Shown: in pieces, positions 2,338 through 23,540 of the stretch
How positions within the stretch are numbered: the stretch's first letter is position 1
Layout: each line of letters starts with the position of its first letter
Assembly (NCBI GenBank): GCA_023139775.1
Contig: JAGLMY010000163.1
Location: 1-39,582, forward strand
DNA length: 39,582 nt
From: a bacterium
GTDB taxonomy: Bacteria > Oederibacteriota > JAAXVQ01 > JAUVAV01
Reading direction: 5' to 3'
Position numbers and translations under genes: made by a program
The notes under the pieces: model-generated
Seen by the model: the letters and a program-made list of their open reading frames with translations, nothing else
The model's database searches: none
What the model was told of the DNA's origin: nothing

Positions 2338-4056
2338 TTATTGGTGAAAGGAGCGAAGCAGCGTTTCTACTTCAGCGGCAGTGGTTTTTTGGAGTGCCTG
2401 GTTGGCGAGTGTTACGCATTCCGGCAGCACGTACTTCCCTACATTGTTGGCCAGGTCCGGCAACAGTACCGGGGCTACGGAAAAATTTCGTAAACCCAGC
2501 CCCAATAATAAAGGCAGGTATATGGGATCGCCGGCCATCTCCCCGCAAATACTGATATCTTTTTCTTTAGCGCGCGCGGCGGCGGCCAACCCTTGCAATA
2601 ATTTGAGGATAACGGGAGAGCAGGAACGATAGTAGGATTGCATACGCTCTGAGGTCCGATCTGCTACCATCACATACTGTACTAAATCATTGGTCCCGAT
2701 GGATAAAAAATCCGCTTCTGTCAGCAACACTTCCGGCGCGACCGCTGAAGCCGGAGTTTCCACCATGGCGCCAATTGGCACCTTGGCCTGATACGGAATT
2801 CCCTGTTCCTTCAGCTCGTGTTCGGCTTTGCGCAGCAATTGCTTCACCAAGCGCAGCTCCTCGACCCCGTTGATCATGGGGAGCAAAATACGAACCGGAC
2901 CATGCACAGCCGTCCGTAGCAACGCTTTTAATTGCGCGAGAAAAATTTTCTCATGCGCGAGGGACAGCCGGATGGAGCGCCAGCCCAAGACGCAGGCCTC
3001 CCTGTTTACTTCCACCGGATTATCAAAATCAAAATGCTTGTCTTCCCCTAAATCCAACGTGCGAATGGTAACCGGCTGAGGTGCCATCTTCTCAACCACA
3101 TGCGTATACGCGAGGTACTGCTCCTCCTCGTTTAAAAACTCTCCGCGATCCATAAAAAGAAACTCGGTTCTAAGCAAACCTACACCCAGAGCTCCTACAC
3201 GAACTGCCTCTTCCACTTCCTTTTCGCGTGTCAGATTGGCTAAAAAACGCACCTCCACTTTATCCAAAGTCTGTGCGGCTTGGGCTGCCCGTTCCTGCAA
3301 AGCCGTGCCCACGCGTCGTTTTTCGTCTGCTTTGGCCAGGGATATTTGCTCCGGCGTGGGATCAATGACGACCACGCCTTGGGTTCCGTCCACCAGAATC
3401 CTTTCCCCGCTTCGGATCTTTTTCAAGACCTCTGGAATACTTAATACCGCCGGCAAGCGCAGTGATCTGGCCAAAATAGCGGCATGCGAAGAGACGCCCC
3501 CAAATTCGGTCACAAAGGCCCCTACCTGTTGGCGATGAAAATGGACCGTATCTGAGGGCATTAACTCTCTGGCTACCATGACCACCAGCTCGCCTTCCTC
3601 CACTGTGCATTGGCGCTGGTATGAGATGAGATTATCCAAAACCCGGCGGCCTACATCGCGATAATCATTGGCCCGTTCCCGCAAATACGGATCCGGTATC
3701 TTTAGAAAAATTTGCGTCATCTCTTCCGTGGCATCTTCCACCGCTGCTTCCAAATTAAGGTTTTCATTGATTAATTTTTTCTCGACCTGGGCATAAAAGG
3801 AAGGATCATCCAACAACAAATTATGTGAAGAAAAAATAGCGGCCTCTTCCGGGCCCAACTCCTTCTCCACCCGTTGGCGCAGATCTTCGATCTGTTGCCG
3901 GGATTGCTCCAGGGTTTCGTCCAATCGCCGGAGTTCTTCTTTCACCCGGTCCGGTTTGATGGTATAGCGCGGAATGGCTTTTGGATCACTCCAAAAACAA
4001 ACCCGGCCGACTGCCAATCCTGGTGATGCTGCAATGCCTCTGAACTCTGTCTCCAT
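2338..4056 (-). CDS. ptsI: Phosphoenolpyruvate-protein phosphotransferase (PTS enzyme I)
   Basis: Enzyme I transfers phosphate from PEP to HPr in the cytoplasm, the first step of the sugar phosphotransferase system. The 572-residue product matches the usual length. It has the N-terminal domain, the phosphorylatable histidine in GGVSSHAAILARS (H191), and the C-terminal TIM-barrel PEP-binding motifs RTLDLGEDK, LLRTEFLFMDR, GTNDLVQY and CGEMAGDP. The ATG at 4056 is preceded by GAGG and begins the conserved METEFRGIAASPG sequence; 49 extra in-frame codons upstream do not look like protein. It is the last gene after ferritin, flavoprotein, ferritin-like and rubredoxin genes, 73 bases from the rubredoxin stop. 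No HPr or EII gene lies in the window, so a regulatory (nitrogen-PTS-like) role is possible, although no GAF domain is present. Confidence 0.93.
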   Translation of the reverse strand: METEFRGIAASPGLAVGRVCFWSDPKAIPRYTIKPDRVKEELRRLDETLEQSRQQIEDLRQRVEKELGPEEAAIFSSHNLLLDDPSFYAQVEKKLINENLNLEAAVEDATEEMTQIFLKIPDPYLRERANDYRDVGRRVLDNLISYQRQCTVEEGELVVMVARELMPSDTVHFHRQQVGAFVTEFGGVSSHAAILARSLRLPAVLSIPEVLKKIRSGERILVDGTQGVVVIDPTPEQISLAKADEKRRVGTALQERAAQAAQTLDKVEVRFLANLTREKEVEEAVRVGALGVGLLRTEFLFMDRGEFLNEEEQYLAYTHVVEKMAPQPVTIRTLDLGEDKHFDFDNPVEVNREACVLGWRSIRLSLAHEKIFLAQLKALLRTAVHGPVRILLPMINGVEELRLVKQLLRKAEHELKEQGIPYQAKVPIGAMVETPASAVAPEVLLTEADFLSIGTNDLVQYVMVADRTSERMQSYYRSCSPVILKLLQGLAAAARAKEKDISICGEMAGDPIYLPLLLGLGLRNFSVAPVLLPDLANNVGKYVLPECVTLANQALQKTTAAEVETLLRSFHQ

Positions 4057-4129
4057 AACTTTTATCCTCAAACCCTTCCGCGTGTTGCGTCTGCTGCTTT
4101 CTCGTTTTGTCCTGCTTTGTTCCTCCGGA

Positions 4130-4291
4130 TTAATCCTGAGGAGAAAATTGATCCTTGCCGACACCACATTCCGGACATACCCAGTCCTCAGGCAACTGCT
4201 CAAAGGGGGTGTTGGGAGCTACACCATTGTCCGGATCACCTTTAGCCGGGTCATATTCATAACCACACACATCACATACATACTTTTGCAT
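4130..4291 (-). CDS. Rubredoxin
   Basis: This 53-residue one-electron carrier binds a single Fe by four cysteines: C6 and C9 in [11 protein letters not shown]39 and C42 in [13 protein letters not shown]. The conserved GDPDNGV and DWVCP segments are intact, so the protein should be functional. AAGGAGG lies 7 bases before the ATG. It follows the ferritin-like gene by 12 bases. In anaerobes rubredoxin passes electrons from NADH-dependent reductases to rubrerythrin, superoxide reductase and flavodiiron proteins. The window also has rubrerythrin and desulfoferrodoxin (15.4-16.4 kb) as likely partners, which is inference. Confidence 0.96.
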
Positions 4292-11879: not shown

Positions 11880-14800
11880 TTAGGCGCACTTGGAAAAGCC
11901 GCACACGCGGCATACCACACAACCGCTCTCATGCTCCACGGTTCCACCGCACTCCGGACATGCGCCAATCAGATGATCCAGAGCATTCAAGCCCGCTGAC
12001 ATCTTCTTCCGGCCAGGGGTTTTAGCATTGCTCTGCCATTTGATAATATTTTCCATGGCCAGTCCCACCGCATCCGGACAAGAGAGCACCATGCCTCCCG
12101 CACTCCAGGCCGGACTGGAACAGCGCAAACCGCGCAGGTTTTTAATAATCGCTTCCGGATTCACATCCGCACGCAAGGCCAACGAAATCAGACGGGCAAT
12201 GGCCTCGGATTGGGCTGCCGCGCATCCTCCTGATTTCCCCATCTGTGTAAATACTTCAAACAAGCCTTTTTCATCATGATTCATAGTTATATAATAATTA
12301 CCGCACCCGGTTTTTATTTTTTCCGTAATCCCGGAAACCACTTCCGGCCGGTCCCGGGGTTCCAGTTTGTGTCCCGGCCCTGCTGCGACGCCTGCTCCTG
12401 CGGACGTGGACAACACCTGACCCTCACGACTACCATCCCGGTAAATGGTAACACCCTTGCATTGAGCGCGATAAGCTTCCAGAAACACTTCTTTTACATC
12501 TGCTTCAGTAGCCGACTGAGCAAAATTAACCGTCTTGGAAACTGCGTTATCCGTATGTTTTTGAAATACCGCCTGCATCCGGATATGCCATAAAGGTTCC
12601 ATATCATGCGCAGTCACAAAGATTTTACGCATTTCCGGCGGCACTGCCTCCATCCCTTGCACGCTTCCTTTTTTGGCAATCTCCTGCATCAGCTCCTCTG
12701 AGGCAAAATCATGCAAAATCGCTTTTTCCTCAAAGATCGGATTTACTTCCACCAATTGATCATTGTCCATCACATTACGAACATACGAGACCGCGAACAA
12801 GGGTTCAATGCCGGAACTGGTATTGGCAATAATACTGATTGTCCCGGTTGGCGCGATGGTGGTTGTGGTCGCGTTGCGCTGCGGCGGTAGTTTTTGTTTG
12901 GCCCAACGACTCCGGGCAAATTCCGGAAATGGTCCGCGGTCCACAGCCAATTCCCGCGACGCCTGTCTGCTTTCCTCAGCAATGCACTGCATGATGCTTT
13001 CGGCCGTGGCCAACGCTCGCTCAGAATTATAGGGAATTCCTAATTTCAGCAACAAGTCGGCAAAACCCATCACACCCAGACCGATTTTCCGGTTTTTCTT
13101 CACCACGGCTTCGATCTGGGGTAAAGGAAACTTTGAGGCATCAATCACATTGTCCAGGAAATGAACCGCACTTTTAACAATGCGACGCAGGCGGGCATAG
13201 TCAATTACTTTTGCTCCGTCTTTGTCGGTCACCAATACGGAAAAATTGATGGAACCCAAATTGCATGCCTCATACGGCAACAACGGCTGTTCTCCGCACT
13301 GTGCCGTAACAAAACCATTACTTACAACAGAATGGGTTTCAGGCTCTGTGGTACAATAAACATCCTCTCTGCCGGCAGGAACTATCTCTTTAACCTGGTC
13401 AACAAAATACTCTTTATTGGAATTACGCTTTTTAGAGGCAATCCACTCTTCGGCCTTCTTCTGTTTGGCAGGAAGCATGAAGCCTATATTTTCGATAAAT
13501 TTATCCCGATTGGCGCCATCTATGATCAATTCGTATTGGGCGGCATAGTGATACAATTTCGGTTGTCTCTTGGAATCCGGCATGAATTTGACGCCCGGTT
13601 TTCGCCGCAGTTTCAACTTTGCCGCCAGGCCTTCATTTAAAAGCATAATTTGGATTTGCTGCAATAATTTTTTCGAACTATTGGCCAAACGTATTGAGCA
13701 GCATCCTTTACTGAGACTTGCGTTGACTGTACCGTCGGCTGTAAAAAGCGCTTGTAAAAATCCCAAAACTGCTTCTCTCGGCGCAGTCCAAAGGGATTTT
13801 GGCACTTCTTTTTCCAAGCCGGAGCATAGTGTAATTCCTAAGGAATTTAAAAAATAATAGAGCACGGATTTGTAGTACAAAGTGTATGTGCCGTTACGTT
13901 CCACGGAAGTACCGTTTAATCCCAACCAGCTTTTTATTAATGAGCGAAACGCAGGCGCCAACTCCTTCTTTTCTTCGTTTCCAAACATTAATCCCACAGT
14001 ATAATTTGGAATATTGCGCCCTGACGGAATTTCCCGGCTCACCCAACCATCGCCAATAATCCAGCCTAATAATTGCCCTAAATCACGCGACCACGTTTCG
14101 GGCCGCTTGCACTCCCCGCGTTGTAATCTGGCTTTCAATTTGTTGTCAGGAAAAAATGGCGGCAAGAGGTTGTCCTTCCCCCATGCTCCTCTGCCAGACT
14201 GCATTAAAATTTCGTCCCCGGGTTTAAGCTCCTTCAATTTCATACGACCGCGAGGTGTTATGAACTTATGATCCGCCGTGGTCGTCACCTCATAACCATC
14301 CTTGGTTTCCAACCGGAATACCGGCCAATTGGCTCTGGTTTTAAAAACCGGGACTGCCGGACGAAAAGTTATACCAGTCACCGGGCGGGTTCTAACCAAC
14401 ATTTGACCTTCAAATATCTTTTTATCATAGCCGGCTACCCGATTGTCTGTCGCAACCTTTATTTTTAGTTGTTCAATATATAATTCTTCAAAGGTGCTCA
14501 GTCCCTGGTCCGTTGCCAACCGCATGGATCCTGTAAAACACGGATTTGTGCTCTCGATCCCGCCTAATTGAGGAGTGGGATTATATTTGTTGATTTGATC
14601 AATAAATACAATTCCCGGCTCCCCGGTTTCCCAGGCGTTTTTCACAATTTGCGCAAAAACCAACCCGGCTGACAAGGTTCCGGTTTTTTGCTGTGTGCGG
14701 GGATGAATTAAATCATACTCGGTCTCTGCTTCTACCGCCTGCATGAACGCATCGGTCAAGGCCACACTAATATTGAAATTGGTTAATTCCCTGGTGTCCT

Positions 14801-15389
14801 GTTTGCAATGAATAAAATCCATAATATCCGGATGGTCCACCCGCAAGACAGCCATGTTGGCGCCCCGACGGGTCCCGCCCTGTTTGACCGCTTCCGTCGC
14901 TGCGTTAAACACTTTCATAAATGAGACCGGTCCGCTGGCGCAACCGTTGGTGGTTCGCACAATATCATTTTTAGGACGTATTCTGGAAAAACTAAAACCC
15001 GTACCCCCGCCACTCTTGTGAATCAAGGCCGCGTTTTTAACACTCTCAAAAATGGATTCCATGGAATCTTCCACCGGCAACACAAAACAGGCGGACAATT
15101 GCTGCATATCCTTACCCGCGTTCATAAGGGTTGGTGAATTTGGTATGAACTCCAAATTAATCATCAACCGGTAAAATTCTTCCGCCACTAACGTGGTATC
15201 ACTCTCCGGGGAGTACAGTTTATCTTGCGCGGCAATATTTTCAGCTACCCGGCGAAACATCATTTCCGGAGTTTCTGAAAGATTATTCCGCGCATCTCTA
15301 CTGAGATACCGTCTTTCCAATACCCGAATGGCATTCTTGGATAACCGAAGCATTTTTCCGGTTGTGGTATCCACGGGACGTCTCTCCAT
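11880..15389 (-). CDS. nrdJ: Adenosylcobalamin-dependent ribonucleotide reductase (class II) precursor with intein
   Basis: Class II reductase makes deoxyribonucleotides without oxygen, using B12 to generate a thiyl radical. The translated precursor is 1169 residues; removing the intein (residues 284-697) leaves 755, normal for NrdJ. Host motifs include NSPTLMNAG, the redox cysteine in LSACFVLPVEDSM (C101), the loop HKSGGGTGFSFSRIRP, and GGTRRGANMAVL. The active-site motif N-P-C-G-E is split by the intein so that C698 follows it. PTGTISIIANTSSGIEPLF follows. The C-terminus is a cysteine-rich tail with CPECGG and CRVCGFSKC, which may receive electrons from a thioredoxin-like donor. No N-terminal ATP-cone is seen. 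The gene is third in a run with rubrerythrin and desulfoferrodoxin (20-base gap). Confidence 0.95.
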   Translation of the reverse strand: MERRPVDTTTGKMLRLSKNAIRVLERRYLSRDARNNLSETPEMMFRRVAENIAAQDKLYSPESDTTLVAEEFYRLMINLEFIPNSPTLMNAGKDMQQLSACFVLPVEDSMESIFESVKNAALIHKSGGGTGFSFSRIRPKNDIVRTTNGCASGPVSFMKVFNAATEAVKQGGTRRGANMAVLRVDHPDIMDFIHCKQDTRELTNFNISVALTDAFMQAVEAETEYDLIHPRTQQKTGTLSAGLVFAQIVKNAWETGEPGIVFIDQINKYNPTPQLGGIESTNPCFTGSMRLATDQGLSTFEELYIEQLKIKVATDNRVAGYDKKIFEGQMLVRTRPVTGITFRPAVPVFKTRANWPVFRLETKDGYEVTTTADHKFITPRGRMKLKELKPGDEILMQSGRGAWGKDNLLPPFFPDNKLKARLQRGECKRPETWSRDLGQLLGWIIGDGWVSREIPSGRNIPNYTVGLMFGNEEKKELAPAFRSLIKSWLGLNGTSVERNGTYTLYYKSVLYYFLNSLGITLCSGLEKEVPKSLWTAPREAVLGFLQALFTADGTVNASLSKGCCSIRLANSSKKLLQQIQIMLLNEGLAAKLKLRRKPGVKFMPDSKRQPKLYHYAAQYELIIDGANRDKFIENIGFMLPAKQKKAEEWIASKKRNSNKEYFVDQVKEIVPAGREDVYCTTEPETHSVVSNGFVTAQCGEQPLLPYEACNLGSINFSVLVTDKDGAKVIDYARLRRIVKSAVHFLDNVIDASKFPLPQIEAVVKKNRKIGLGVMGFADLLLKLGIPYNSERALATAESIMQCIAEESRQASRELAVDRGPFPEFARSRWAKQKLPPQRNATTTTIAPTGTISIIANTSSGIEPLFAVSYVRNVMDNDQLVEVNPIFEEKAILHDFASEELMQEIAKKGSVQGMEAVPPEMRKIFVTAHDMEPLWHIRMQAVFQKHTDNAVSKTVNFAQSATEADVKEVFLEAYRAQCKGVTIYRDGSREGQVLSTSAGAGVAAGPGHKLEPRDRPEVVSGITEKIKTGCGNYYITMNHDEKGLFEVFTQMGKSGGCAAAQSEAIARLISLALRADVNPEAIIKNLRGLRCSSPAWSAGGMVLSCPDAVGLAMENIIKWQSNAKTPGRKKMSAGLNALDHLIGACPECGGTVEHESGCVVCRVCGFSKCA
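13299..14540 (-). other. Intein with LAGLIDADG homing endonuclease in NrdJ
   Basis: The in-frame insert runs from C284 (CFTGSMRLATDQGLS, block A) to Q697 (HSVVSNGFVTAQ, block G region) of the precursor, 414 residues. Block B has TTADHKFITPRGRMKLKELKPGD with the TxxH signature. Two dodecapeptide motifs, LGWIIGDGWVS (about 441-451) and LGFLQALFTADGTVN (about 542-556), keep the acidic metal ligands, so the endonuclease may be active. The penultimate position is Ala instead of His, and the last residue is Gln instead of the usual Asn; Gln-ending inteins are rare, but a viral reductase example is known to splice. The +1 residue is the host cysteine C698. Confidence 0.93.
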
Positions 15390-15409
15390 GTTTTATTGCC
15401 TCTCTGTTT

Positions 15410-15790
15410 CTAGGCTCTTGCTTCCCACAAGCCATGTAAATTGCAATGCTCCCTGACAGTGAGCTTTTCAGCCTTGACCTGAAAAACCGCCTTCGGCGGT
15501 TCACCAGGTTTCAAAAACTGAAGGTAACTCTTCTTATTGGCAATTAATTCAATCCATTCAATATAATGTTTTTCCTCCATGGGGTGTTCAACGCTACCCA
15601 CGGTTATGGTAACCACGTCGCCCTGTTTTTCAATAACCGGGACATGCTTTTCCTGAGCCGCGTCCGTGATACCTGCTTTCACTTTTTTCATTGGCTGTCC
15701 ACAGCATGAGGGCAAAACTCCAGCGTGCAGTACTTCCACGATCCCGCCGCACTCCTCACATCTGTATATTTCCAAAATTTTGGTTCCCAT
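15410..15790 (-). CDS. dfx: Desulfoferrodoxin (superoxide reductase, two-centre type)
   Basis: The 126-residue protein reduces superoxide to peroxide in the cytoplasm of anaerobes. Centre I, the desulforedoxin-like Fe(Cys)4 site, is C11, C14, C29 and C30. Centre II, the catalytic Fe(His)4Cys site, is H49 in EKHVPV, H69 and H75 in [15 protein letters not shown], and C116/H119 in EHCNLHGLW. The conserved E47-K48 pair next to H49 is present. All ligands are intact. GGAG precedes the ATG. It lies 27 bases after the rubrerythrin stop and 20 bases before nrdJ. Electrons would come from the rubredoxin encoded at 4.2 kb (inference). Confidence 0.97.
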
Positions 15791-15817
15791 AATTATCTCC
15801 TTTTTTATAGTTGTATA

Positions 15818-16393
15818 TCAATAATTTTGCACTTTTAACTCAAAATGTGCCTGCGGATGAGCACAGGCCGGACAGCTTTGCGGGGCTTCCTCGCCTTCAT
15901 GCACATAACCGCAGTTGCGGCAAACCCAGCTTACTTTTGTCGATTTTTTAAACACTTGGTTTTTTTTGATATTCGCTGCTAAAGCACTGTACTGATTCTC
16001 GTGATTTTTCTCTGCCACAGATACGGCCTCAAATACCTTGGCTATGTCCTCAAAACCCTCAGCCCGGGCAATTTGGGCAAACTCAGGGTACATTTTAGTG
16101 TTCTCGTAACGCTCACCGGCTGCGGCAGCCTCTAAATTGTCCACAGTATCCCCGATCACGCCGGCTGGAAACGCTCCGATAATTTCCACCTCGCCGCCTT
16201 CCAGGAACTTGAAGAAGCGTTTGGCGTGTTCCTTTTCCTGGTTGGCGGTTTTTTCAAAAATTGCGGAAATCTGAACATAGCCCTCTTTCCCGGCCTTGGC
16301 CGCAAAATAGGTGTAACGGTTTCTGGCTTGAGACTCTCCGGCAAAAGAGGTCAATAAGTTTTTTTCGGTTTTGGTTCCTTTAAGTTTTGGCAT
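15818..16393 (-). CDS. rbr: Rubrerythrin
   Basis: Rubrerythrin is a peroxidase reduced by rubredoxin or NADH-dependent reductases. The 191-residue product has the diiron four-helix domain (E20 in FAGESQARNRYTYF, E53/H56 in NQEKEHAKRFF, a second EGFEDIAKVFEAVSVAEKNHE half) and a C-terminal rubredoxin domain (about 155-185) with WVCRNCGYVHEG and CPACAHPQAHFE cysteine pairs. The length is typical. GGAGGAG lies before the ATG. It is the first gene of rbr-dfx-nrdJ, so together the products remove superoxide and peroxide while the third makes DNA precursors. A promoter presumably lies in the 220 bases upstream, but no clear -35/-10 pair or PerR box was found. Confidence 0.97.
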   Translation of the reverse strand: MPKLKGTKTEKNLLTSFAGESQARNRYTYFAAKAGKEGYVQISAIFEKTANQEKEHAKRFFKFLEGGEVEIIGAFPAGVIGDTVDNLEAAAAGERYENTKMYPEFAQIARAEGFEDIAKVFEAVSVAEKNHENQYSALAANIKKNQVFKKSTKVSWVCRNCGYVHEGEEAPQSCPACAHPQAHFELKVQNY

Positions 16394-19337: not shown

Positions 19338-22300
19338 ATGCGAATTCATGCTGTAAACAGAGGTGTTCCGGCCGAAATCGTGCGTATAAAAAGACGCACG
19401 CTTGAATTCTTGTCGGCCGGAATACTGCTTTTTCTGCCCTGCTCTGCCCACGCTTTACCCGCTCCCTTTATGATTTTTGGTTTCTTTGAATTTTCCCTGC
19501 TTTTCATCGGGCTCGCGTCCGCAGGCTTTGCCTTGGCCGGCATTGCCTTTCTTCGTATGCTTAACAAACGTAAAAATCCCATCCGCTTTCTAATTGTCAC
19601 CAGCAGTCTGTTTGCTCTTCTTTGGCTCATTACGCTCTCGCTGTTACTTGTCAATTGGAGTGGAAAATCCAGAGAAAATTATTTGAACAATTTGGAAGCA
19701 TATATGCGGAGTGATATCAACATTCACGAAAGCCGCGTGTGGTATTGCAAATTTATACAGCATTACCCTCAGGCCACCCTGACGGATCTGCACACCAAAA
19801 TTATGGCTGATCCTGAGTATCGGCCTTTGTTGCTGATCTCCTGCAGTCTTCCCGTATATGCCTCCGGTATTCCCGGTGTCGGTTCACCGCAGAACCGGCG
19901 GCTGTTTGAGCGGGTGGATTTGGCTAATCTGGAAGCGCATCTGCAAAAAATCCCCTTAAAAAAAAGAAATCAGCTGGATCTGTATTGGATACCGATTCAA
20001 TTGTTTTACCGCGCGCAGCCTTTGGAAAAACACAAATCCCTGCTGACCCTACTGGCTTCCTTCCGCCGGGTGTATTATATAAAACCTGTGGTTGGTATTA
20101 CCAATTTTAAATTCAAACAGCTGCCTGACAACCGTCTGGTTCCGGCCATTTATACCAGTCCCCAAAAAAGATCCTATTGGCCGGTACGGCCGGATGTCTA
20201 TTTTCATGATGAGCCGCACGTGCGTTTTCCCAATATGACCACCGTGTTCTTTGCGCGTGATATCGGTAAATATATTTCCGATCAAACGTTTCCGATTGTG
20301 GCCCCCTACAACGGTATCCATCGCAGCCGGGAAATCCAGCTTGAGTATCTCTACACCTATTGCCTTTCCCGTCTGGGACCCGTGAACTGGCGCCAATATT
20401 TTGAAAAACCGGAGTATCAAAAACACATCCGCGCGCGCATGCAGCGTAATAATATTTATGCTATTGATTACGCGGCACCGGATTTTGAGAAACAGGCAAA
20501 ACGCTTGTCTGCCTGGTTGCGCGACAAGCCGTTTTTGGTGGTAGCGCTGACCAAGCATGACTGGCTTATGGGTGGTATGGATTTTTGCTATCGCCTGTAT
20601 CAAGACAGCCAAACCCGGAAACACTCCTTTCGCTATCTGGGAGCTACTTTGCAAATCGCGGAATTTTCCACGCTCTGGACCTGGAAAGAAAAAAATTCCT
20701 TGTTAATTAAGCAACCGCTGCGGCGCAGCCAGGTGTGGATTACTCAAGCCGCTGTTGTCTTGGCTAAAATCACAACTCCTTTTTCCGACCTCCTGCTCAT
20801 GCTCTTGGCGCTGCTGGTTTTTGCCGCGCTTTCTCCCCTACTGATTCCGGGACTCTGGGCCCAAAGTGTGCGCCGTGAACTTACCCTGGCAATACAACAA
20901 TCCCTGCCAAAACATCCCTATCGTGCCCGGCTCAAACCTTGGTTGTTGCGAAAAATCGGATATCATCCGTTCTGGGAAATGATCGAAAAAGCTTTGTCGC
21001 TGATCACTATTTTGGCCTGCTTTAAAATCCTGGTTTTTCCCGACAACCCGCTGCTTAGCAACCAAGGTTTTTTTCTGTCCGGACTGGATCAACCGCAGCC
21101 CTGGTTTAATGTGCTCTTGGTCCTGGTATCGCTTTTGCCGTTGCTCCCCAGACCTCTGAAACTACTCCGGCAGCCCGGTCCGTTCTGGAAATTAGTTTTT
21201 GCCATAGTGCTTAGTATTGGCTTCTTGCTTTTGCTCAATGCCTTGGTACCTGTTGCCTACGCGCTCTTTGCCTTCACCTTTTTAGTTCTTCGCCTGCTCA
21301 CAGCCCGGGCGGTTACCCGCACGGCAAAGCGCCGGATCGCGGAACTGTTTAATTTGAAAATCAGCTCCGCGTTTAAACCGAAAGTGTTTTTGCCAAACTA
21401 TCTCGTTCCCTTGGCGCCCAATTCCGTTTCGGTCCTGCCCGGCAAAGCAGCTGTGCTGGCCAAATTGTTCGCCTTTGATCATCCGCTCTTTTCTGTGCCT
21501 CCGGGATTTGTGCTCTTTCCCAAGCAAATTCCCCCAGCCACTTCTGAGGAATACGCGGCACACATCCGCCACGCCGCGGAATTGTATTTTTCCCAAGCCG
21601 CAACACAGACCTATGCGGTCCGCTCCTGCGCCGCCACGGAAGACAGCCGGACCGAGAGTCAGGCCGGCCGGTTTTCCTCAATCCTAAATGTTACTTTAAC
21701 CGAACTACCTCACGCCGTCGATCAGGTACTGACATCATATCAAAAACAACAAGTGCCTGTGGACGCTTCCAGCGGTGTGATTATTCAAAAAATGATTACT
21801 GCCGAAATAAGCGGAGTGCTCTTCACCCAATCTCCCAAGAGCGGAGTCTTAAGTCATATTGAATACGTGTCCGGCGCGGCTGAATCATTGGTCTCCGGCC
21901 GCAAGCAGCCCAAGGAAATTTTCTTTTCCCGCTGGTCCGGCGCGCAGGCACCACAGCCCGACGCCTATCTGCCTGAATTGCAAACCGTTTTTTTTAGCGG
22001 CATGCTAATGGAAAATTTCTTGTCCGCGCCGCAGGATATTGAATGGGTGTACTGCCAACGCGAGCATCAGCTCTATATAGTCCAAGCACGTCCTATTACT
22101 AAATTCTTATTCTCTCCGGAAATCCACCTGGAACAGGAACGTTTTCTTGGTTCACAGCTTGCTTCTCTTTTAAACACACCGGATAAACCACTATGGGATC
22201 TCAGTCCCGTATATGAAGTAGTGAACAATCCCAGCCCTTTTACCTTCTCCTTGTTACAAGAACTCTATAGCACACAAGGCAGTCTGGGAATCGCGCTTGA

Positions 22301-23540
22301 TCAATTGCATATCACTCACACAGGCGCCCATGGTCTGGACGTGGTTCCCGGCTTTAATCGTTTGTATATTGAGCGTCTGGGATTTCGTCATTTGCTCTCG
22401 CGTTTCCGTTATTGGCAGTCTGCCAAGCAGGTTGCTGCGCGCTTAAAAAGAGATCCCGCGCCCTTGCTGGCCCGGTTGCGCGCGCTGCAGAACAAAATAA
22501 CTGAATACGCTTTGCCGGATACACAACCAACAAACACCAAATCCCTGGCCGCGGCTTGCCAGGCACAGATCCGAATTTTTATCACGCAAATTTATCCCCC
22601 AGCCTTCCATGCTTCTTTGCTGTGTTCACTGCTTCCGTCGGCACTAACCAAACACCTGGCAGTTCCAACCCAAGCCGGCGCCTTGGCGAAAGCTTTGCAA
22701 CAGCTCTCAGCGGATAATGCTATGGATACTTTTCTTTCGGCCTGGGGCTATCGTAGTACCCAAGATTATGATCTCTTGTTTCCCAGCTTCCGGGAAAATC
22801 CCCAGCAGGCTTTGGATTTAGCCAAACAGTACCAACACTTTCAAGTTACCTCCTCAGCGGAACCAGCCTCCGGTTCTGCTCTGCAATTATTACAGGCCAA
22901 GGAAGAGATCAAGGATCTCGCCATTCAGTGGCTCCGGCAACGCCGGCCCTGGTTTTTAGCGCTCGGTAAAGCTCTAAAACTTACTTTGCCGGAAAATATT
23001 TTTTATCTGACCTTGGCTGACCTTTCCCGTGTGGCAGCACACGAATCATGGCCGGACCTTAAGGCTCAGGTAAGTAAAAACAAAAAAATCCAACAGACTT
23101 TTCAGGCTTTGGACTTGCCTGATCCCTTAAAACGCACGGATATTGAATTTCTCAACGCCTGCGAACTATTTCCTGCTGCCCGGTTACGGACCTCAGCCTG
23201 GCGGCAAAAAGCCCCGGATTTTTATGGTCAAGCGCTTTCCGTGCCCCGGGATTTTTCCGGAGAAATAGCTGTGATTGAGGATACGCTTCCCCTTTCACCG
23301 GAATATTACCACAACAAAATTGTGGTAACCAAATTCTTAAAACCTCAATTGGTAAGTTTGTATGGTACTGTGGCCGGCATTCTGACCGAACGCGGCGGGT
23401 ATCTTTCCCATGCCGCCTTAGTTGCCAGAGAAAAAGGTGTTCCAATTCTGCAGGTGGCTGCTTGCTGTTCACGCTTGTCTGATGGTGATCAGGTATACGT
23501 TCAAGCCAACGGAGATATCCATTTGCTTCCCCGTCCGTAG
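19338..23540 (+). CDS. Giant membrane protein with PEP-synthase/rifampin-phosphotransferase-like domains
   Basis: The product has 1400 residues. The N-terminus has a signal-like segment and two further TM segments (about 22-40, 47-73, 83-106). A soluble domain of about 350 residues (110-460) is not recognised. More membrane segments follow at about 466-508, 551-570, 587-607 and 614-655. The C-terminal half has a PPDK/PEP-synthase ATP-grasp domain (about 710-925) with YAVRSCAATEDSRTESQAGR, VIIQKMITAEISGVLFT and LYIVQARPIT. A helical linker (about 930-1310) follows. The last domain is a swivelling phosphohistidine domain with H1358 in ERGGYLSHAALVAREKGVP. No PEP-binding TIM barrel is present, so the order matches rifampin phosphotransferase, which moves a phosphate from ATP to a small molecule. 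AAAGGA precedes the ATG. The substrate is unknown. It is the only plus-strand gene for several kilobases. Confidence 0.85.
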   Translation: MRIHAVNRGVPAEIVRIKRRTLEFLSAGILLFLPCSAHALPAPFMIFGFFEFSLLFIGLASAGFALAGIAFLRMLNKRKNPIRFLIVTSSLFALLWLITLSLLLVNWSGKSRENYLNNLEAYMRSDINIHESRVWYCKFIQHYPQATLTDLHTKIMADPEYRPLLLISCSLPVYASGIPGVGSPQNRRLFERVDLANLEAHLQKIPLKKRNQLDLYWIPIQLFYRAQPLEKHKSLLTLLASFRRVYYIKPVVGITNFKFKQLPDNRLVPAIYTSPQKRSYWPVRPDVYFHDEPHVRFPNMTTVFFARDIGKYISDQTFPIVAPYNGIHRSREIQLEYLYTYCLSRLGPVNWRQYFEKPEYQKHIRARMQRNNIYAIDYAAPDFEKQAKRLSAWLRDKPFLVVALTKHDWLMGGMDFCYRLYQDSQTRKHSFRYLGATLQIAEFSTLWTWKEKNSLLIKQPLRRSQVWITQAAVVLAKITTPFSDLLLMLLALLVFAALSPLLIPGLWAQSVRRELTLAIQQSLPKHPYRARLKPWLLRKIGYHPFWEMIEKALSLITILACFKILVFPDNPLLSNQGFFLSGLDQPQPWFNVLLVLVSLLPLLPRPLKLLRQPGPFWKLVFAIVLSIGFLLLLNALVPVAYALFAFTFLVLRLLTARAVTRTAKRRIAELFNLKISSAFKPKVFLPNYLVPLAPNSVSVLPGKAAVLAKLFAFDHPLFSVPPGFVLFPKQIPPATSEEYAAHIRHAAELYFSQAATQTYAVRSCAATEDSRTESQAGRFSSILNVTLTELPHAVDQVLTSYQKQQVPVDASSGVIIQKMITAEISGVLFTQSPKSGVLSHIEYVSGAAESLVSGRKQPKEIFFSRWSGAQAPQPDAYLPELQTVFFSGMLMENFLSAPQDIEWVYCQREHQLYIVQARPITKFLFSPEIHLEQERFLGSQLASLLNTPDKPLWDLSPVYEVVNNPSPFTFSLLQELYSTQGSLGIALDQLHITHTGAHGLDVVPGFNRLYIERLGFRHLLSRFRYWQSAKQVAARLKRDPAPLLARLRALQNKITEYALPDTQPTNTKSLAAACQAQIRIFITQIYPPAFHASLLCSLLPSALTKHLAVPTQAGALAKALQQLSADNAMDTFLSAWGYRSTQDYDLLFPSFRENPQQALDLAKQYQHFQVTSSAEPASGSALQLLQAKEEIKDLAIQWLRQRRPWFLALGKALKLTLPENIFYLTLADLSRVAAHESWPDLKAQVSKNKKIQQTFQALDLPDPLKRTDIEFLNACELFPAARLRTSAWRQKAPDFYGQALSVPRDFSGEIAVIEDTLPLSPEYYHNKIVVTKFLKPQLVSLYGTVAGILTERGGYLSHAALVAREKGVPILQVAACCSRLSDGDQVYVQANGDIHLLPRP

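Follow-up and report, generated by a model that had tools for sequence, protein, structure and literature searches.

A class 1 intein at the radical cysteine of a class II ribonucleotide reductase and the three C-terminal endings of its site family

An intein that interrupts a ribonucleotide reductase (RNR) directly before its presumed radical cysteine, and that ends in glutamine, raises the question of whether the unusual ending marks conditional splicing, as the initial annotation of this locus proposed, or whether it is one of several endings with which inteins at this site can splice. The locus was analysed within a 39,582-nucleotide stretch of bacterial DNA (contig JAGLMY010000163.1, assembly GCA_023139775.1), here called the window, and its features are collected in Table 1.

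The host protein is identified as NrdJ by NCBIfam (TIGR02504, 710 bits), and the intein-bearing nrdJ ORF is a single open frame, read from 15389 to 11880 without an internal stop. A Pfam search of this ORF finds the RNR barrel interrupted by LAGLIDADG_3 and Intein_splicing domains, the latter matching at 39.3 bits against a cut-off of 35.8. When the sequence is aligned against Thermotoga maritima NrdJ from the PDB, C698 falls on residue 322 (T319-N-P-C322-G-E), C101 on C134 and C709 on C333; residue 322 of that enzyme is the established thiyl-radical cysteine, and residues 134 and 333 are the redox pair. The barrel, finger-loop cysteine (NPCGE) and redox cysteine pair of a class II RNR are all present, and the C-extein is full-length with intact catalytic motifs. 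A family-wide study places the thiyl cysteine in the finger loop of all characterised RNRs (PMC9531940). The intein directly precedes C698, and splicing is therefore required for NrdJ activity.

Table 1. Features of the intein-bearing nrdJ locus (positions in the window)
Feature	Position	Strand	Basis or remark
nrdJ precursor ORF, class II B12-dependent ribonucleotide reductase with intein	11880..15389	minus	1169 aa
N-extein, residues 1-283, ending ...IESTNP	14541..15389	minus	T. maritima NrdJ alignment up to P321
C-extein, residues 698-1169, CGEQPLL... and cysteine-rich C-terminal tail	11880..13298	minus	sequence, NCBIfam, T. maritima alignment
Cys698 codon, +1 splicing nucleophile and NrdJ finger-loop radical Cys	13296..13298	minus	alignment to T. 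maritima C322
Intein, class 1, 414 aa, Cys1...Gln414 (precursor residues 284-697)	13299..14540	minus	motifs, Pfam, model
Cys1 codon, step 1 nucleophile	14538..14540	minus	Cys in 62/65 relatives, alignment-column gap in 3
Block B Thr88-x-x-His91	14268..14279	minus	conserved 65/65
LAGLIDADG homing endonuclease domain, about residues 150-330	13551..14093	minus	PF14528 match
Endonuclease acids D164 and D269	14049-14051 and 13734-13736	minus	both acids kept in 62/65 relatives
Block F position 4, Cys396	13353..13355	minus	17/17 in the window's clade; Asp or Asn elsewhere
Block F His403-Ser404-Val405	13326..13334	minus	Val405 covaries with the C-terminal residue
Block G Ala413-Gln414	13299..13304	minus	non-canonical C-terminus
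Desulfoferrodoxin gene, upstream of nrdJ, same strand	15410..15790	minus	PF01880, 80.5 bits
Rubrerythrin gene, upstream of desulfoferrodoxin gene, same strand	15818..16393	minus	PF02915, 112.3 bits

NrdJ is not the sole reductase, a possibility ruled out by a class III NrdD encoded on contig C49 of the same genome; given this second enzyme, NrdJ is probably the reductase used under oxygen exposure. The NrdD ORF (L002, 309-2575) stops before the glycyl-radical motif, and the RVVGY module is found immediately downstream as a separate ORF of about 50 aa (MSKKCTQKTEVYSRVVGYFRPVQQWNKGK...) in a different frame; an NrdG-like radical SAM ORF comes next. Genomes G066 and G070 likewise give small, separate matches to the C-terminal part of NRDD, which makes a split NrdD, and not only a sequencing error, plausible from the sequences. 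Elsewhere in the window, a 1400-aa ORF (19338-23540, plus strand) has its PPDK_N domain far from the PEP-utiliser mobile domain and would be an unusually large phosphotransfer protein, and another PEP-utiliser ORF, of the PTS enzyme I type, lies at 2338-4203.

The intein junctions read ...GGIESTNP/CFTGSMRLATDQ...THSVVSNGFVTAQ/CGEQPLLPYEAC, or in short form IESTNP/CFTGS and FVTAQ/CGEQPL, where a slash marks each splice point. Cys1, the block B T-x-x-H motif, the cyclisable C-terminal Gln414 and the +1 cysteine are those of a class 1 intein, and the place of the typical penultimate histidine is taken by Ala413. This substitution does not bar class 1 membership, since functional inteins without a penultimate histidine exist (PMC4031507), and a C-terminal Gln is an accepted variant of the last intein residue (PMC4031507). 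The two helices of a LAGLIDADG homing intein are present, each with its acid. An AlphaFold2 model built with 24 relatives has a pLDDT of 90.2 and a pTM of 0.90, and its nearest solved structures are TliVMA (7qsu) and PI-PfuI (1dq3). On its sequence motifs, then, the element is classified as a class 1 LAGLIDADG intein splitting NrdJ at NP/C...AQ/CGEQ. The initial annotation had described much of this correctly: its coordinates for the intein are exact and lack only the strand (minus), it recorded the Ala-Gln C-terminus and the intact pair of LAGLIDADG acids, and its reading of N-P-C-G-E as split directly before the radical cysteine, with C698 doubling as the +1 nucleophile, agrees with the alignment, which places the catalytic cysteine at C698 and not elsewhere. 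The spliced host length of 755 aa, with the +1 cysteine at precursor residue 698, is also as it had predicted, and it was right that the reductase is inactive unless spliced, the unspliced precursor being unable to act as NrdJ.

In the splicing reaction proposed here, Cys1 would attack the carbonyl of Pro283, C698 would take over the thioester, Gln414 would cyclise to a glutarimide with the aid of the block-F His403, and the joined exteins would form the mature enzyme. Two features may weigh against efficient splicing: the penultimate residue is Ala rather than His, and a proline at the -1 position reportedly can slow the first step, as is said of the Mth RIR1 intein. Inteins ending in Gln are nevertheless able to splice, and the Chilo iridescent virus RNR intein (CIV RNR) does so better with Gln than with Asn; Gln slows some others, and the Pyrococcus abyssi (Pab) and Methanoculleus marisnigri PolII inteins are faster with Asn (PMC4031507).

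When NrdJ sequences were searched for inteins at this site and their block G residues compared, as the initial annotation had suggested, 65 distinct inteins from bacteria and archaea were found at the same junction (NP/C.../CGE). Their carriers include Elusimicrobiota, Omnitrophota, Bacillota, WOR-3, Rokubacteria and several archaea, with further members drawn from 341 Elusimicrobiota and 384 Omnitrophota genomes and others from the archaeal phylum to which the Methanophagales carrier belongs, these last being "haloarchaea-like" by sequence and not by name. Such recurrence argues that the arrangement is not a product of chance. Among the members, the NrdJ ORFs of L056, L109 and L124 are 2316, 1636 and 1562 aa long and probably hold more than one intein each. 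In a genome of the window's own phylum (G043), the NrdJ with an Asn-ending intein (L005, 2896-4988) has a frame break in its N-extein just upstream of the intein, which is either an assembly error or a broken gene.

Within the window's phylum the intein is present in 2 of 45 genomes. In G002, G003, G006 and G007, relatives from the same family and order, NPCGEQ is unbroken, and their host identities to the window are 74-76% / 67-70%, the value in the C-extein part being 67-70%. Compared with the Elusimicrobiota carriers, the window shows 61-64% identity in the intein and only 40-43% in the C-extein. Intein and host identities thus disagree and close relatives carry empty sites, and these comparisons establish, at the level of sequence, horizontal transfer of the intein into the window's nrdJ. 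The 24 bases around the insertion point, CAATTAGGCGGGATCGAGAGCACAAATCCG^TGCGGAGAACAGCCGTTGTTGCCGTATGAG in the empty site, show 71-96% identity when the window is compared with the hosts of its clade, which is what a homing target in conserved codons should show. Homing into the codons that are most conserved and essential for activity, from which the element cannot be lost imprecisely without destroying NrdJ, would best account for the placement before the radical cysteine. A direct phage or plasmid donor was sought and none was found, the best matches having only about 27-28% identity and viral contigs at most 26%.

The last residue varies widely within this site family: Asn is the final residue of 32 of the 65 inteins, Gln of 17 and Asp of 16, and at least nine changes of the last residue are needed on their tree. 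Glutamine is therefore no unique oddity of the window, whose closest relatives end in either Gln or Asn. The window is the earliest branch of a clade of 17 members (SH-aLRT 100), with a support of 82 for the branch separating it from the other 16 members. The branches that follow are also Gln-ending, six members of the clade in all, spread across long branches, and the 11 Asn members group together inside it (SH-aLRT 100). From this branching order, Gln was probably ancestral in the window's clade.

Each ending is accompanied by its own residues in block F. At position 405, two after the block-F histidine, all 17 Gln inteins have Met, Val or Ile, all 32 Asn inteins have Phe or Leu, and all 16 Asp inteins have Phe or Tyr. 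None of the 16 Asp inteins (L107-L117, L010, L041-L050) keeps the histidine itself, in whose place stands Leu, Phe or Tyr, and by sequence they constitute a second coupled non-Asn type. Among 402 alignment columns, position 405 alone separates Gln from the other endings with no errors in 65 (the next best column makes three), and only position 403 separates Asp perfectly. Independent pairs, those for Gln being taken on starred branches, are concordant in 3 of 3 cases for Gln and in all 5 for Asp; the numbers are too small to be significant by themselves, and for Gln the strict paired test does not reach 0.05. Some of the branches between Gln and Asn inteins are also weakly supported. For an independent two-state column on the tree, the probability of the Gln pattern is at most 3.6e-10 per column, or about 5e-6 when the choice among 402 columns and up to 32 letter groupings is roughly allowed for. 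Members found afterwards, namely the haloarchaeal Asn inteins and one further Asp intein, fit the block-F rule. A distant phage NrdE intein (Brochothrix A9, L150) breaks it by combining Asn with Val at position 405, so the coupling does not reach beyond the NrdJ site family. Along a strand, every second residue points to the same face. The block-F His of the Pab PolII intein lies 4.1 Å from the side chain of its C-terminal Gln (PMC8175363), and position 405 should accordingly sit near the cyclising residue. Glutamine appears to be one of three interchangeable, co-adapted endings.

How the endings came to differ is less clear-cut. It is possible, though doubtful, that the Gln, Asn and Asp forms were spread by recombination of C-terminal segments between inteins and not by point mutation, an explanation that is compatible with co-adapted endings. 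The letters of blocks F and G change together, and inspection of codons shows that a change from Gln to Asn takes at least two base changes through codons that would probably not splice. Against this, the Asn members L099 and L096 of the window's clade retain Gln-like surroundings (HSLIANGFVAAN versus HSVIANGFVTAQ), which looks stepwise.

The proposal of redox-conditional splicing holds that oxidation forms a disulfide among Cys1, the block-F Cys396 and/or the +1 cysteine, leaving the precursor unspliced and NrdJ off until reduction releases it. Of the intein's six cysteines, Cys1 and Cys396 alone are conserved in the window's clade, Cys396 in 17 of 17 members together with Cys1 and the +1 cysteine; control through Cys144, 239 or 280 is ruled out by their lack of conservation, and C281 occurs in six of the 17. 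There are precedents, in that the Gln-ending Pab PolII intein requires reduction of a Cys1-Cys+1 disulfide (PMC8175363) and the Mycobacterium smegmatis DnaBi1 intein senses H2O2 (PMC6195587). However, the same cysteines are found in the Asn-ending sisters, and in part in all class 1 Cys inteins, and so are not specific. The neighbouring genes also seem suggestive at first: a rubrerythrin gene, a desulfoferrodoxin gene and nrdJ follow one another, with 27 bp between the first two and 20 bp between the last two, so that the stretch upstream (15390-16393) resembles an oxygen-defence operon. This order is absent from same-family relatives (the desulfoferrodoxin gene is on another contig in G002, and neither gene is near nrdJ in the stretches examined) and did not turn up in the neighbourhood of the tested intein carriers, and a conserved operon is thereby ruled out as support for a redox switch. 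Moreover, a class II RNR is indifferent to O2 and is needed when oxygen damages NrdD, so that switching NrdJ off at that moment would be counter-intuitive. Overall, redox control is possible but very unlikely. A broader version, in which nrdJ is expressed with rubrerythrin and desulfoferrodoxin, the three cysteines gate an O2-indifferent reductase so that it matures only after reactive oxygen has been cleared, and a family-wide code of C-terminal residue and block-F partner sets the splicing rate, is marginally less likely again.

The least probable explanation, and a very improbable one, is that the Gln end marks a decaying intein with crippled or slow splicing in a cell living on NrdD: Ala-Gln does depart from His-Asn, the genome does encode the class III enzyme and PolII inteins are slowed by Gln (PMC4031507), but Gln is common to the six clade members over long branches and comes with its matching block-F residue in all 17 Gln inteins, Gln pairs are under strong purifying selection, the C-extein is intact and NrdD was not found in 6 of 14 intein-bearing genomes (whose assemblies may be incomplete). 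Recent decay in particular is ruled out, there being no degenerate motifs, frame breaks or relaxed selection.

The selection estimates come from pairs of relatives with usable synonymous distances, and those for pairs whose synonymous sites are saturated are rough. In the endonuclease region dN/dS lies at about 0.03-0.11, a range that covers the Gln pairs, while the N-terminal splicing part gives about 0.08-0.17. The pair L041/L043 is too nearly identical to be read in this way, and the window has no relative close enough to yield a value of its own. Purifying selection, the intact endonuclease acids and horizontal transfer together point to a homing element that splices efficiently. The claim of the initial annotation that the Gln end is a pointer to conditional splicing is thus not upheld; with Gln and Asp at the ends of 17 and 16 of the 65 site-family inteins, and with Gln likely ancestral, matched by a specific block-F partner and under purifying selection in Gln pairs, the residue looks co-adapted. 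The preferred reading is that of a class 1 intein, competent for homing and gained by horizontal transfer, at a recurrent NrdJ site, whose Gln ending would splice by default, and to this reading a probability of roughly 85% is assigned.

The intein is ordinary in kind, and the chief value of the analysis lies in the C-terminus of its site family, with three states each coupled to block F, a pattern which argues against taking Gln ends as signs of regulation. A single site that has switched among Asn, Gln and Asp at least nine times, with matching changes in block F, makes for an unusually informative family, and the tolerance of a non-Asn C-terminus, a long-standing question, becomes testable with few mutations. 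No description of such a C-terminus was found in the open literature searched; a key 2004 paper on Gln- and Asp-ending inteins lies outside that search, and novelty is accordingly not claimed.

Several known inteins resemble that of the window in part. The SPbeta bnrdE intein and the NrdE inteins of SPbeta-like phages also lie directly before the homologous radical cysteine (SNL/C...GN/C[ST]E), but are only about 26-27% identical to the window's intein, end in Gly-Asn and have a class Ib host. The CIV RNR intein, by its published description, shares an RNR host and a C-terminal Gln (PMC4031507). The PolII inteins of P. abyssi, P. horikoshii (Pho) and M. marisnigri all have the C-terminal Gln; they interrupt a DNA polymerase and are slow with Gln, and those of Pab and Pho are mini-inteins with a penultimate His. 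The Aquifex aeolicus NrdB intein, which was spliced in Escherichia coli, is likewise an RNR intein among catalytic residues, but it lies in the R2 subunit, where it separates metal ligands (PMC8772380). The closest likeness is to the other NrdJ/RIR1 radical-cysteine-site inteins (Omnitrophota, Elusimicrobiota, Halanaerobiales, Methanophagales and haloarchaea-like), which share the junction, are class 1 and mostly carry LAGLIDADG domains. Among these, whose last residue varies between Asn, Gln and Asp, the window's clade, which includes the Elusimicrobiota inteins, is set apart by a block-F Cys in place of Asp and mostly by Ala or Gly in place of His before the last residue.
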